This document shows positions 4,829-44,693 of a stretch of DNA of 64,000 nt, piece after piece (position 1 is the stretch's first letter; the number at the start of each line of letters is the position of its first letter). The stretch covers positions 1-64,000 of the forward strand of contig JAQXZD010000099.1 in assembly GCA_029227035.1 (NCBI GenBank), given 5' to 3'. Source of the stretch: Lachnospiraceae bacterium. Its GTDB lineage: Bacteria > Bacillota > Clostridia > Lachnospirales > Lachnospiraceae. The notes beneath the pieces are model-generated. The model searched no databases. It was not told the origin of the DNA and saw only the letters and a list, made by a program, of their open reading frames with translations. Both the position numbers and the translations under genes were made by a program.

Positions 4829-6811
4829 TTGGAAACCGTGGAAAAAAAGAAGACAATCGGAGTATTGGTTGGGGGAATTACGGATGACTTTACGAGATGT
4901 CTCTGTGACGGAGTGAAGAAGGCGGCAGAAGACAGCGATGTCAATGTTGTTGTATTTCCGGGAAAGTTTTTGGATCGTGACTATGCGGAGAATCTGGATA
5001 TCCGTTATGAGTATCAGTACGAGACTCTTTTTTCTTATGCGACGAAATATTCGCTGGACGGTCTGATTGTGGCGGCAAACTGTATTGGCTGCTGTACCAC
5101 AAGGGAGCGTCTGGTGGAGTTTATGCAGCAGTATAAGGAGATTCCGTGCGTACTGGTTGCTTCGGATATTGATGGTTTTGTCAGCGTTAATTTTGACAAT
5201 TATCAGGGAATTAAGGAAGGACTGGAATATCTGATTGAAGTCCTGCACTGTAAGAAAATCGGAATGGTGGGAGGACCGGCGGCGTTGTCGGACAACGTGG
5301 CGCGCCGCAATGCCTATGAATCGGTACTGCGCGCTCATGGAATTGAGCCGGAGGAGAAGCTATATATAGAGAAACGGCATACCACCACTTCAAGAGAGGT
5401 TTACGAGAAACTTCTGGATGACAATCCGGATATCGAGGCGGTCTTTTGCGTCAACGACGAGACGGCAGCGGAATTGTACGAGGAACTGAAGAAGCGGAAC
5501 CGTATGCCGGGCAAGGATATCTCTGTCTTTGGCTATGACAATGTGTCGTGGTGTACGCAGATGTTTCCGACGCTGTCTTCCGTCAGTGCGGATGTGTCGG
5601 TGCTTGGAATAGAATCTTTCCGGCTGCTCTGCCGTATGATGAACGGAGAGGACGTACAGAGTGTGAATCTTCCGACGAAGTTTGTCCGGAGAAATTCTGT
5701 CTGCAGACCGTCGGCAATGCCGGAAGAGGACAGAGAGGAAGTCTTTGAGCAGTATCTGACCATGAATCACTGGATGGAAGAGCAGAGAGGCAAACAGAAC
5801 CGGACGAATTTTGAGATGAAGCAGTTCATTGCAAAGATTCTTCAGTTTGAGAAGGCCAATGACCAGAGCTACGCGGAGATTCTGGGAACCATGGACTGGC
5901 TGGAGATTTACAATGCGTTTTTGTTTACCTTTGACAAGCCGATTATCCATCTGAATCATGAGAAGTTTGAGCTGCCGGATTATCTGTATCTGAAAGCAAA
6001 CCAGAGCAAGGGAAAGGTGCGGAGTGTGCCGGCTGTCAAGCAGAAGATGCGGGTCAGATCCATCTTTGACATGAAGCGGCTGGGAATCGGCGAGCGCGCC
6101 ATGTTGGTGGTATTGCCGCTGTACTCCAATGAGATTCTGTACGGAATTTTATTGTGTGACCTGTCAGAGGGCGTGATGGAGAACGGAGAGTTTCTGGGAA
6201 ACCTGATGTCGGCAACGGTCAAGATGATAGAGCTTCTCAAGGCAAACGACTCCATCATGAAGAAGCTGGAGCAGTCTCTGGCGGTGCTGGAGGAGAATAA
6301 TCTGGAGCTGAACAATCTCTCCAAGAGAGATCCGCTGACCGGTATTTTAAACCGCAGGGGCTTTTTCCTGCAGGCGGAGCCGATGCTGGAGAAGTGTCGC
6401 AGTGAACAGAAGGAAGTCACAGTGCTGTATGTGGACAAGAATAATCTCAAGATTATCAATGACCGTTACGGTCATGAGGAGGGAGATTATTCCCTGCGTA
6501 CCATTGCGGAGATTCTGAAGGAGCAGGTGGGCAAGTACGGAGTGGTCGCAAGAATCGGCGGAGACGAATACGCCTGTGTGCTGACTACGGTTCTGGAGGA
6601 CGGTCAGATTCTGGAGAAGATTTATGCGGCTTTTGAAAAACATAATAATGTAAGTGATAAGCCGTATAATGTCACGGTATCCATCGGGGCGTACCGGATT
6701 CTGGTGGATGACGGACATACGCTGGAGGATGCCATGACTCTTGCGGACGAACAGCTCTACGAGGTGAAGCGGCTTCGTACCAAGAATGTTGCCAAGGTAC
6801 AACAGGCGTAA
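4829..6811 (+). CDS. LacI-type periplasmic-binding-like sensor domain fused to GGDEF diguanylate cyclase
   Basis: KKKTIGVLVGGITDDFTRCLCDGVKKAAED...GYDNVSWCTQMFPTLSSV followed by RDPLTGILNRRGF...ARIGGDEYACVL; no HTH or signal peptide visible. Confidence 0.88.
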   Translation: METVEKKKTIGVLVGGITDDFTRCLCDGVKKAAEDSDVNVVVFPGKFLDRDYAENLDIRYEYQYETLFSYATKYSLDGLIVAANCIGCCTTRERLVEFMQQYKEIPCVLVASDIDGFVSVNFDNYQGIKEGLEYLIEVLHCKKIGMVGGPAALSDNVARRNAYESVLRAHGIEPEEKLYIEKRHTTTSREVYEKLLDDNPDIEAVFCVNDETAAELYEELKKRNRMPGKDISVFGYDNVSWCTQMFPTLSSVSADVSVLGIESFRLLCRMMNGEDVQSVNLPTKFVRRNSVCRPSAMPEEDREEVFEQYLTMNHWMEEQRGKQNRTNFEMKQFIAKILQFEKANDQSYAEILGTMDWLEIYNAFLFTFDKPIIHLNHEKFELPDYLYLKANQSKGKVRSVPAVKQKMRVRSIFDMKRLGIGERAMLVVLPLYSNEILYGILLCDLSEGVMENGEFLGNLMSATVKMIELLKANDSIMKKLEQSLAVLEENNLELNNLSKRDPLTGILNRRGFFLQAEPMLEKCRSEQKEVTVLYVDKNNLKIINDRYGHEEGDYSLRTIAEILKEQVGKYGVVARIGGDEYACVLTTVLEDGQILEKIYAAFEKHNNVSDKPYNVTVSIGAYRILVDDGHTLEDAMTLADEQLYEVKRLRTKNVAKVQQA

Positions 6812-38154: not shown

Positions 38155-40818
38155 ATGCAGTTTATTGGAATAACCGGCGGAGTCGGAGCCGGAAAATCGC
38201 AGATACTTTCTTATCTGGCAACAAAACCGAAGACAAAAGTAATGCTGGCGGATGATATCGCCCATGAGCTGATGGAACCGGGAACAGAATGTTACAGGCG
38301 GTTGCGTGAGCACTTTAAAGGGGAAGACATCTGGCAGCCGGACGGATATTTTGACCGGGAAAAGCTGGCAGCCGTCATTTTTTCGGATGACGGAAAGAGG
38401 GAAGAGATGAATGCCATTGTGCATCCGGCAGTCCGGGAATATGTGTGCGCGCAGGCGGAAAAAGAGCGGCAGGCAGGAGAGCTTGAGCTTCTGGTTCTGG
38501 AAGCGGCATTGTTAATCGAAGAACATTATGATGCAATTTGCGACGAACTTTGGTATATTTATACCAGCAGGGAAATTCGAAGGGAACGGCTGAAAGCATC
38601 CAGAGGCTATTCGGATGAAAAAGTGGATGGGATTTTTGCAAGCCAGTTAAGCGAGGAGGAATACCGCAGGCATTGCAAAGTGGTCATTGACAACAACGGA
38701 GCTCTGGAAGATACCCTGACGCAGATTGAGAAAGCTTTGAGGAGAAAGCATATGGAGAACGTATTTGGTTTGGACATTGGAACCCGCAATGTGGTGGGAA
38801 CCGTTGGATACCGCACAGAAGAGAATGAGTTTGTGGTGGTGGCACAGTATATGAAGCAGCATGAGACAAGAGCCATGCTGGATGGACAGATTCACGATAT
38901 CGGCAGAGTGGGCAGAACCATTAACGCGGTGAAGGCAGAGCTGGAATCACAGATTGGAGAGCCGCTGACGGATGTATGTATCGCAGCCGCAGGACGAGTG
39001 CTTAAGACCGTGACAACGCATGTGGAATATGAGTACGCGGAGGAGACTGTGGTTTCCGCGGAGGATCTGCATACACTGGATCTGCTTGGCGTGGAGAGTG
39101 CCCAGAAGACTTTGAAGGAAAAGAATGATACCAACTACCGGTTTTACTGTGTCGGCTATTCGGTTATGAAATATTATCTGAATGACGAAGTGTTTATCAG
39201 TATCAAGGACCATAAGGCAAACAAAATCGGGGAGGACATTATTGTGACTTTCCTTCCGGAAGATGTTGTGGACGGTCTGTATTCCGCAGTGGGACAGGCG
39301 GGACTTACCGTTGCCAATATGACTCTGGAGCCTATCGCTGCAATCAATGTGGCAATTCCGGAGAACTTCAGGATGCTGAATATCGCGCTGGTGGATGTGG
39401 GAGCAGGAACTTCCGATATCTCCATCACCAAAGAGGGAAGCATCATCGCTTACGGTATGATTCCATATGCGGGAGATGAGCTGACCGAGCTGATTGTGCA
39501 GAACTATCTGGTCGATTTTAAGATGGCGGAGGCAATGAAGCTGGCATCCACCACAGAGGACGAGATTACTTATGAAGACATCATGAGCATCACCCATACC
39601 ATTCCGTCCAAAGAGGTGTGGGATCTGGTAGCGCCGACGGTGGATAAGATTACGACGGAGGTTGCCGCCAAGATTAAGGAGTTAAACGGTGACAAGACGG
39701 TGAGCGCCTGCTTTGTGGTCGGCGGAGGCGGCAAGATACACGGTTTTACGGATATGCTTGCGGAGCGTCTGGATCTGCCGAAGGAGCGTGTGGCATTAAG
39801 AGGCGAGGAAGTCTTAAAAGAAGTGATCTTTGAGCAGGAGGATATCAAAAAGGATCCGCTTCTGGTTACCCCGATTGGTATCTGTCTGAATTATTATGAG
39901 CAGAAGAACAACTTTATCATGGTTCGTTTTAACGGAGAGCGGTTAAAGCTGTATGACAACAACAGACTGACCATTGTGGATGCTGCGCTTCAGGCGGGAT
40001 TCCCGAATGACCAGCTTTTCCCAAGAAGAGGCGTGCCGATTAATTTTACGGTCAACGGTGCGGCGCGAATCGCAAGAGGAGAAGCGGGAGAGGCGGCAAA
40101 GGTTACCATGAACGGCAAGCCTGCGCATATCAATACGCCTCTTGAGCCAAACAGCGAGATTGTCATTGAGCCTTCCACGGCGGGAGAAGATGCCGTGTAC
40201 CGTATCGGACAACTGGCGGAATATCACGAGTCTACGATTTCCTTTATGATTAACGGACAGAGGGTGGTATGCCCGAAGTTTGTGGAGGTAAACGGAAGTC
40301 TGGAGCCGGAAAGCTATGAGATTCAGGAAGGGGATGTCATTGAGACCAGAAACTTCTACACAGTTGGTCAGGTGGCGGAGTTCATGGATGCCACAATCGA
40401 TGAAAATTATCAGATTATGGTCAATAACCGGGTAGCCAATCTGGACACACTGGTGTATGAAAATTTCTCAATCGACTGGACTCTTTCCGGTTTCGGGGTT
40501 GCACCGGAGCCTGAGAATCTGTATAATGCTACAGGAGAAAGCAATGAAGACGAAGCGGACGGTGAGGTACCGCAGGAAGAACCGGAAACCATCCCTCCGC
40601 AGAATGAAACGATCTGCATTGTGTCGGTGAACGGAGAGACGGTTGAACTGATGGGCAAAGAGAGTTATATCTTTGTGGACATCTTTGACCGGATTACCTT
40701 TGACCTGAATGCCGGGCAGGGAAGAGCAATCGCCACACTGGTAAACGGGGAGCAGGCAGAGTTTTCACAGCCGCTTCACAATGGCGATCGGATTGATTTA
40801 TATTGGAAAGAGCAGTAA
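38155..40818 (+). CDS. coaE: Dephospho-CoA kinase fused in frame to an FtsA-like actin-fold protein; internal ATG 38752 possible
   Basis: GITGGVGAGKSQILSYLA...VVIDNNGALEDTLTQIEKALRRKH then MENVFGLDIGTRNVVGTVGYR...LVDVGAGTSDISI. Confidence 0.88.
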   Translation: MQFIGITGGVGAGKSQILSYLATKPKTKVMLADDIAHELMEPGTECYRRLREHFKGEDIWQPDGYFDREKLAAVIFSDDGKREEMNAIVHPAVREYVCAQAEKERQAGELELLVLEAALLIEEHYDAICDELWYIYTSREIRRERLKASRGYSDEKVDGIFASQLSEEEYRRHCKVVIDNNGALEDTLTQIEKALRRKHMENVFGLDIGTRNVVGTVGYRTEENEFVVVAQYMKQHETRAMLDGQIHDIGRVGRTINAVKAELESQIGEPLTDVCIAAAGRVLKTVTTHVEYEYAEETVVSAEDLHTLDLLGVESAQKTLKEKNDTNYRFYCVGYSVMKYYLNDEVFISIKDHKANKIGEDIIVTFLPEDVVDGLYSAVGQAGLTVANMTLEPIAAINVAIPENFRMLNIALVDVGAGTSDISITKEGSIIAYGMIPYAGDELTELIVQNYLVDFKMAEAMKLASTTEDEITYEDIMSITHTIPSKEVWDLVAPTVDKITTEVAAKIKELNGDKTVSACFVVGGGGKIHGFTDMLAERLDLPKERVALRGEEVLKEVIFEQEDIKKDPLLVTPIGICLNYYEQKNNFIMVRFNGERLKLYDNNRLTIVDAALQAGFPNDQLFPRRGVPINFTVNGAARIARGEAGEAAKVTMNGKPAHINTPLEPNSEIVIEPSTAGEDAVYRIGQLAEYHESTISFMINGQRVVCPKFVEVNGSLEPESYEIQEGDVIETRNFYTVGQVAEFMDATIDENYQIMVNNRVANLDTLVYENFSIDWTLSGFGVAPEPENLYNATGESNEDEADGEVPQEEPETIPPQNETICIVSVNGETVELMGKESYIFVDIFDRITFDLNAGQGRAIATLVNGEQAEFSQPLHNGDRIDLYWKEQ

Positions 40819-43310: not shown

Positions 43311-43325
43311 CGCGATAAGCGATGA

Positions 43326-43391
43326 AAATGAAAAGAAAGAAGCTCTGGAAAGAAAATTTATTTGCTTTCCAGAGCTTCTTTCTTTTCATTT
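43326..43391. repeat. Perfect 27-bp inverted repeat, 12-nt loop
   Basis: aaatgaaaagaaagaagctctggaaag ... ctttccagagcttctttcttttcattt. Confidence 0.95.
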
Positions 43392-43395
43392 GAGG

Positions 43396-43644
43396 AGCAA
43401 CGCGATCACGAGGAAATCAGAGATTTCCGAGTCGTCGCTTATCGCGTCCCAAAAACAACGCGACAGCCCGCGCACGAGGAAATCTGTGATTTCCGAGTCG
43501 ACGCGTCTCGTAGCGTAATATATCAGAGCAACGCGATCACGAGGAAATCAGAGATTTCCGAGTCGTCGCTTATCGCGTCCCAAAATAATGCGACAGCCCG
43601 CGCACGAGGAAATCTGTGATTTCCGAGTCGACGCGTCTCGTAGC
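43396..43644. repeat. Tandem palindromic repeat array: ~118-bp unit x2 (period 131), each containing two ~65-bp palindromic monomers
   Basis: cacgaggaaatcWgWgatttccgagtcg at 43407, 43473, 43538 and 43603. Confidence 0.95.
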
Positions 43645-43647
43645 TTA

Positions 43648-44160
43648 TTACACACTAAAGGGTTTAACTTCTTTCATTAATTCATTGATTAAATAATTCT
43701 TTATATCGGTTATATGTTGAGGAAAATAGTTCGGTTTCCTGGATTCAAAGGCTAAAATTCTCTTTAATTTGCGTTCCAATTCGTTTACTGTTTCTGCTCT
43801 GCGAATAATTACATGTTTACCACAAGAACTAAATTCATGGTCTATGTATTTTTCAATAATAGGATAGCAGGAACTTATTTTATATAATGCCTCTTTAGTT
43901 GTTTTTCCTATATGATAATAGCAACTTCTTAAATCCTTATTTGGTAGTTCCAAGCACTTTTGGTAATAAGATTTTTGCGCATCAGTCCGATGGCTAATGT
44001 CACTTGTTGGGATAGCCCAATACAACCCTTCAATTAAATTATCCTTAATGCAACAATATATCGGGCGTTTGTTGCCATTATAGCAATCACAATCGCCACC
44101 AATATCACGTACTAATTGCAAAAAGTCTTTTTTGATAATATATAGTCCATGTTCTTGCAC
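43648..44160 (-). CDS. Probable type III toxin-antitoxin endoribonuclease toxin (ToxN/AbiQ/CptN-like)
   Basis: 170 aa; RPIYCCIKDNLIEGLYWAIPTSDISHRT, YYHIGKTTKEALYKISSCYPIIEKYI, KHVIIRRAETVNELERKLKRIL; GTG start, SD aggaga; preceded by pseudoknot-repeat RNA and terminator. Confidence 0.75.
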   Translation of the reverse strand: MQEHGLYIIKKDFLQLVRDIGGDCDCYNGNKRPIYCCIKDNLIEGLYWAIPTSDISHRTDAQKSYYQKCLELPNKDLRSCYYHIGKTTKEALYKISSCYPIIEKYIDHEFSSCGKHVIIRRAETVNELERKLKRILAFESRKPNYFPQHITDIKNYLINELMKEVKPFSV

Positions 44161-44177
44161 TTTATCTCCTGAATAAT

Positions 44178-44203
44178 AGAAAAAGCCTATATTTTTATAG
44201 GCT
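44178..44203 (-). terminator. Intrinsic terminator between antitoxin RNA and toxin
   Basis: minus strand AGCCTATA AAAA TATAGGCT TTTTC. Confidence 0.9.
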
Positions 44204-44351
44204 CTCTATTCGTGTAATTTAGTAACGCCACACGACAGGCGTATTTCTTCGATTCATACATTTCAAACACTAATGACCTGTGTTTTTTAATCAATCTACT
44301 TAATTTGGAAGCGCCAAGTAGCAAGCGCATAAGAGAACAATTTGTTCTCTT
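44204..44351 (-). ncRNA. Candidate type III antitoxin RNA with three tandem H-type pseudoknot units
   Basis: Minus-strand units at 44328-44296, 44283-44254, 44242-44210 share the architecture 4-bp stem / loop / stem / 9-nt NNNNAAATN-like linker / loop complement; -10 TATAAT at 44363-44358. Confidence 0.75.
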
Positions 44352-44599
44352 GTTTGTATTATACACAATTATAGAAAAATTAACAGCACTCAATACATAG
44401 AAAACTAACAGAAAATCTCTACTTGAATTTGTATAAATTAACGAAATTTACAATTCATCAGATAATACAAAGTAAAATGAAAATGTATTGCAATTATGCG
44501 CACAAGTTGGCATAATAAGAGCAGGCAGAAGTTGACTTAGAGAAAGAAATTAAGATTCCGGAGCCTTGACAAGCTGAAAAAACCATGGTTAAATAAGAA

Positions 44600-44668
44600 C
44601 AGTTATATGACTGACGGAAGTGGAATCAACCACATGAAGTATAACAGTAAAAGCCGACCGTCTGGGCG
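44600..44668 (+). ncRNA. ZTP riboswitch (pfl motif)
   Basis: atatgactgacggaagtggaatcaaccacatgaag...aagccgaccgtctgggc matches the pfl core, upstream of purine genes. Confidence 0.92.
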
Positions 44669-44693
44669 CCATGCCCGGTCGTGTTGGCTTTTT
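44652..44693 (+). terminator. Riboswitch expression-platform terminator
   Basis: agccgaccg...cggtcgtgttggctttttat overlaps the 3' aptamer element. Confidence 0.8.

Follow-up and report, generated by a model that had tools for sequence, protein, structure and literature searches.

Among described type III toxin-antitoxin systems, the one to which the locus reported here appears closest is CptIN of Eubacterium rectale (4RMO; PMC4627078). Its antitoxin RNA, CptI, is arrayed as two identical 45-nt units, each with a one-base first loop (L1) and a nine-base A-rich second loop (L2, A27-G35) whose A29 and U30 are essential, and is cleaved after G44-A45 (PMC4627078). The system stabilizes plasmids, and it conferred no resistance against more than 200 coliphages in E. 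coli (PMC4627078). Antitoxins of the ToxI family are built from units of 34-36 nt that form triplex-containing knots (PMC5086642).

The locus described below lies in a 64,000-nt stretch of DNA, hereafter called the window. Taken together, its parts very probably constitute a type III locus in which an array of RNA knots serves as antitoxin to a CptN-like, MazF-fold toxin, a reading that draws on the order of the parts, the homology and predicted fold of the protein, the conserved pairings, and the tail and loop motifs of the RNA. With E. rectale CptIN it shares the locus order, a MazF-type toxin fold, an H-type pseudoknot with a very short L1, a 9-nt A-rich L2 and a GA 3' tail, and a unit length of ~42-45 nt. 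It differs in having three diverged units rather than two identical ones, and in the linker between stem 1 (S1) and stem 2 (S2), which is TG or AGG.

Layout of the locus and its surroundings

Read 5' to 3', the minus strand at 43648-44363 presents a TATAAT hexamer, a short hairpin, three pseudoknot-forming units, an intrinsic terminator, an AGGAG and a GTG-initiated open reading frame (ORF). With the exception of the hairpin, these parts lie where an earlier note, made from the sequence alone, had placed them. The promoter consists of the -10 hexamer only (44358-44363, read from the sequence), because a consensus promoter scan lists no site on the minus strand and shows no recognizable -35; the string TGTGTATAAT, at the hexamer, occurs at the same place in three of the loci compared here (designated by L numbers), L051, L079 and L178. 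Between the hexamer and unit 1 lies the hairpin absent from the earlier note, AAGAGAAC-AAATT-GTTCTCTT (44351-44331), of 8 pairs.

Unit 1 (44291-44328) comprises S1 GCGCT/GGCGC, L1 TG, S2 CTACTT/AAGTAG, L2 TTCCAAATT and the 3' tail ATTGA; unit 2 (44249-44283) has S1 ACAC/GTGT, S2 TCAT/ATGA, L2 TTGAAATGT and the tail ATCGA; and unit 3 (44205-44242) has S1 ACGCC/GGCGT, L1 TG, S2 TCGTGT/ACACGA, L2 TACTAAATT and the tail ATAGA. Stem 1 begins at intervals of 45 and 41 nt from unit to unit, in agreement with the earlier note. The earlier drawing of three knots also stands, but in units 1 and 3 a stem 1 of 5 bp fits better than one of 4; so redrawn, these units have a 2-nt linker, TG, and the first strand of S2 abuts the second strand of S1 without a gap. 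An intrinsic terminator (44180-44207), with a 12-pair stem, a loop of 4 and a T run, marks the boundary between the antitoxin RNA and the toxin gene, which is a 170-aa ORF with a GTG start and AGGAG ahead of it (43648-44160). Tandem structured RNA repeats, a terminator and a predicted toxin ORF thus follow one another on one strand in the type III order that had been claimed, and the same part order with multi-unit arrays recurs in L017, L018, L079, L051, L052, L169, L174, L184 and others. As to the leader hairpin, one placed directly 5' of unit 1 is common in CptI loci (L012, L017, L019, L025, L030, L051, L079, L088), and none was seen ahead of unit 1 in the E. rectale-type locus L005; such a hairpin may shield the 5' end or serve as a cap for unit 1.

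The locus is flanked by a DUF711 gene on one side and by a ZTP-riboswitch/purine operon (purO leader) on the other. The gap between DUF711 and purO measures 1403 nt in the window. In eight genomes of the genus that share these neighbors it is 65-299 nt; three further genomes of the genus have longer gaps with different contents. The gap comparison and a drop in GC (down to 31% vs ~50% in the flanking genes) delimit an AT-rich insert of ~1.2 kb, at approximately 43311-44560, that holds the locus and is missing from several same-genus genomes, and the two features together are consistent with foreign DNA having been inserted here. The ORFs listed for this intergenic stretch are all too short to encode an integrase or transposase. 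Because E. rectale CptIN stabilizes plasmids without phage resistance (PMC4627078), maintenance of a mobile segment would by analogy be a more likely role for the locus than phage defense.

Three further features of the surroundings were recorded. Beside the insert, the ZTP riboswitch (Rfam RF01750, 55 bits) occupies 44597-44674 on the plus strand, upstream of genes for IMP cyclohydrolase and AICAR transformylase. Between the toxin gene and DUF711, at 43407-43640, a GC-rich element with a GGAAATC-NNN-GATTTCC hairpin stands in four tandem copies; no copy was found elsewhere in the genome or in any other locus compared, and an identity as a genome-wide interspersed element was ruled out, since all four genome copies are at this locus. 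At 38155-40818 on the plus strand, an 887-aa ORF holds both dephospho-CoA kinase (CoaE, residues 3-185) and an FtsA/PilM-like region, a putative fusion or frame join.

The predicted toxin and its relatives

The earlier note had proposed that the ORF encodes a toxin of the ToxN/CptN superfamily, and sequence and fold comparisons agree. An NCBIfam scan returned the CptIN profile (NF047359) alone (E=5e-18, 65.4 bits), and Pfam and PADLOC scans of the ORF gave nothing above threshold. The sole significant match in a PDB sequence search was CptN 4RMO (E=4.2e-13, or 1e-16 when a profile of five sequences was the query), and canonical CptN was matched in a profile-profile comparison at E=1.7e-22 with a probability of 99.5. 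The AlphaFold model of the ORF reached a pLDDT of 91.4 when built from 24 window and locus sequences, five close homologs alone having given 42. Searched against 350,542 PDB chains, this model has a ToxN/CptN (MazF-like) fold and again found CptN 4RMO as its best match (E=2.2e-9, TM 0.72/0.78, ~26% structural-alignment identity), followed by MazF and CcdB. From these profile, PDB, profile-profile and fold matches we infer that the ORF product is a CptN-like, MazF-fold toxin.

ToxIN and AbiQ (4GLK) resemble the window locus in their type III order and have a toxin of related fold, but the fold likeness (AbiQ TM 0.54/0.56) is far below that of CptN, and no ToxN/AbiQ sequence match was found either in Pfam above its cut-off or among the chains returned by the PDB sequence searches. 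No TenpN family appeared in the NCBIfam or PADLOC scans, libraries that may hold no TenpN model. As judged from sequence and modeled structure, then, the nearest family is CptIN and not ToxIN or AbiQ. Counting against full membership, however, the 65.4 bits fall below the curated NCBIfam cut-off for CptIN, which is 90 bits, and for this reason the locus is a CptIN-like sister lineage rather than a textbook CptIN member.

In the alignment with the E. rectale toxin (CptN-Er), residues T52-S53 of the ORF lie opposite its active-site Ser-Ser pair, and the conserved H57-R58 lies beside the site of Arg53, with a three-residue insertion intervening. Of the residues that specify adenine in CptN-Er (Asp81, Ser85 and Tyr104), Tyr104 is opposite Phe110 in the window, and the segment bearing Asp81 and Ser85 is shorter; both differences count against the CptN-like reading.

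In a maximum-likelihood tree of 85 toxins, the window protein falls within a 13-row clade (window, L017, L018, L079, L086, L087 and L089, together with L050, L051, L052, L081, L085 and L088) that has a support of 100/99 and a branch length of 1.05 changes per site, and that stands outside all canonical CptN sampled; a plasmid sequence, L083, sits at its base on a long branch, its placement unsure. Five relatives from the clade, scored against the NCBIfam profile, reached 61.6-69.3 bits, all below the 90-bit cut-off. The lineage adds a deep and mostly unannotated CptN-like branch, whose tested members all fall under the curated annotation cut-off. Its hosts include Clostridia genomes, IMG/VR contigs of up to 349 kb and an unannotated C. 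difficile phage record. A scan of viral contigs with the single E. rectale CptN sequence found nothing, although alignment queries did find members.

Joined to the window's side within the toxin clade is a sister clade comprising L081 (pCD1602_4) and the Clostridia loci L050-L052, L088, L169 and L174, which likewise mostly have three heterogeneous units and a terminator, with 5' hairpins in several. It differs from the window in that stem 1 is only 3 bp, L2 is shorter and without the UAAAU core, protein identity is ~43%, and MG or VG replaces the active-site Ser-Ser pair. The same replacement at the catalytic Ser-Ser of CptN is seen across L050-L052, L081, L085 and L088, where covarying knots with the 3-bp stem 1 are kept; judging from these residues, the active site of this group may differ. 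In the 132-kb C. difficile phage record pCD1602_4, the L081 locus is an unannotated CptIN-like locus at 5001-5489 with three heterogeneous units.

A different elaboration is seen in two genes at L201:140-3013 (minus strand, 957 aa) and L202:1757-4195 (plus strand, 812 aa), each of which encodes an N-terminal CptN-like domain and a C-terminal DUF6674 region (E=7.6e-45 in L202; E=6e-6, just below the Pfam cut-off, in L201) and lies behind its own pseudoknot-like repeat array and terminator. Their predicted products are type III toxins fused to a large protein.

Pairing, loops and tails of the antitoxin RNA

The best pseudoknot chain in the 140-nt antitoxin region comprises three units with a score of 76.8, which none of 400 dinucleotide-preserving shuffles attained (mean 14.6, maximum 62.0). 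For covariation, the window, L017 and L079 loci were aligned by sequence alone and the structure was taken from the window; an alignment of the three window units alone was rejected because it misaligned the stems. All 113 of 113 cells pair across the three loci, and nine stem pairs are changed on both sides with none broken, a number of two-sided changes reached by 0 of 500 shuffles; slid structures pair only 25-48%. The strongest signal comes from S2 of unit 3, where five of six pairs are changed on both sides (TCGTGT/ACACGA in the window, CCATAC/GTATGG in L017 and CTATGT/ACATAG in L079). The pairs of unit 1 are kept in both relatives, and the leader hairpin is 100% paired in all three loci with two pairs changed on both sides. 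Both helices of the H-type pseudoknots, which the earlier note had deduced from differences among the units, are in this way upheld by homologous loci, L017 and L079 keeping all pairs and showing compensatory changes.

Unit 2 is the exception and counts against the overall reading. Its stems are only 4+4 bp and its pairs are invariant among the window, L017 and L079, so covariation gives no test of it there, and its support is limited to its presence and to the different yet pairing stems found in L018 (ACAC-TTG-CTGGT-T-GTGT-TTTAAAC-ACCAG) and L178. These short stems are also what would be expected of a decayed locus, in which a toxin remnant lies beside an accidental or degenerating array. 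The ORF is intact and has a confident predicted fold, however, and the survival of every pair in three species, some by compensatory change, indicates that the structure is under purifying selection, leaving decay very improbable.

The loops and tails tie the array to CptI. Across 20 units from seven arrays on the window's side of the clade, GA is present in the tail right after stem 2 in every unit (at offset 3 in 18 and offset 2 in two), and L2 is A-rich in every unit and exactly 9 nt long in 15. All three window units have the CptI-type knot, with a short L1, a 9-nt A-rich L2 and GA at the predicted 3' cleavage end, the tails matching in sequence the known G44-A45 cleavage site of CptI; by analogy, a cut after GA would yield units of 42 and 44 nt. 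The base equivalent to the kink base U30 of CptI is U in unit 3 and another base in units 1 and 2, and the window loop is therefore not an exact copy of that of CptI. That a structured RNA and a terminator precede an ORF could also suggest an unrelated regulatory leader, an attenuator or riboswitch upstream of a gene that encodes no toxin, but with a CptN homolog as the ORF, repeat units bearing the CptI loop and tail motifs, and no Rfam family at gathering score in the antitoxin region, this is extremely improbable.

For the preferred reading, a type III locus with a knot-array antitoxin, we infer cleavage, ring assembly, toxicity and neutralization from E. rectale CptIN. Transcription from a single promoter would yield an RNA in which the 5' hairpin is followed by the three H-type pseudoknots in tandem, with most transcripts ending at the terminator and read-through providing the toxin mRNA. 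The toxin, a predicted MazF-fold endoribonuclease, would cut the precursor right after the conserved GA tail, and the released knots, of ~42-44 nt, would stay bound in a toxin-RNA ring with the active site blocked. By this analogy the three RNA knots would almost certainly hold the toxin in check. Were the supply of antitoxin to fail, for example through loss of the locus or shut-off of host transcription, free toxin would cut cellular RNA.

Divergence among the units

The earlier note took the diverged unit sequences as a sign of an unusual antitoxin variant. The divergence is real but not unique: diverged units are the rule in the window's clade and are common, though milder, across canonical CptI arrays, so that the heterogeneity is a trait of the clade and lies toward one extreme of a range. 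A survey of 40 non-redundant CptI arrays counted 68 stem pairs in which both bases change from unit to unit without loss of pairing, a figure that leans toward pairing because the units were located by complementarity; only the two-sided count was used because ungapped projection and differences in unit length create apparent broken pairs.

The simplest account of this heterogeneity within the type III reading, and the one to which we incline, is neutral drift, in which the toxin ignores stem letters, any pairing stems work, and no unit has a specific job. What the toxin appears to read is the shape of the knot, the A-rich L2 and the tails, not the letters of the stems; stems under such a toxin could change pair by pair, and the sequences of the three units would grow apart. 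Compensated stem changes alongside constant loop and tail motifs, and the milder heterogeneity of many canonical arrays as seen in the 68 two-sided changes, agree with drift. The compensatory changes from unit to unit also represent natural evidence that these toxins tolerate widely different stems while the loop and tail motifs stay fixed, and they make the recognition code and interchangeability of antitoxin repeats directly testable. Against pure drift stands the retention of positional identity: stem 1 of unit 2 is ACAC/GTGT in five relatives (among them L017, L018, L079 and L178), down to ~59% protein identity, and in L018, L051, L052 and L169 unit 2 stands apart from units 1 and 3, which match each other fully or almost fully, an arrangement that pure drift would not favor.

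Such A-B-A arrays would be accounted for if adjacent stems were kept different to block cross-knot pairing during folding, units 1 and 3 being free to match. Of 18 three-unit arrays, 11 have their greatest likeness between units 1 and 3, against an expectation of one third (binomial p=0.014), a pattern noticed post hoc among related arrays, with a p value uncorrected for phylogeny. Since seven of the 18 arrays are without the pattern, and some arrays (L005, L041, L123) are made of identical units, this account is doubtful. It is unlikely that the units go further and are position-specific parts, with neighbors kept different for a set order of folding, cutting or assembly and the middle knot having a role of its own, although if this were true a type III antitoxin would be made of distinct modules rather than repeats; for such a scheme the A-B-A order and the ACAC/GTGT marking of unit 2 are suggestive only. 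Avoidance of recombination ranks low as a cause of the heterogeneity, because it would leave identical units 1 and 3 free to recombine.
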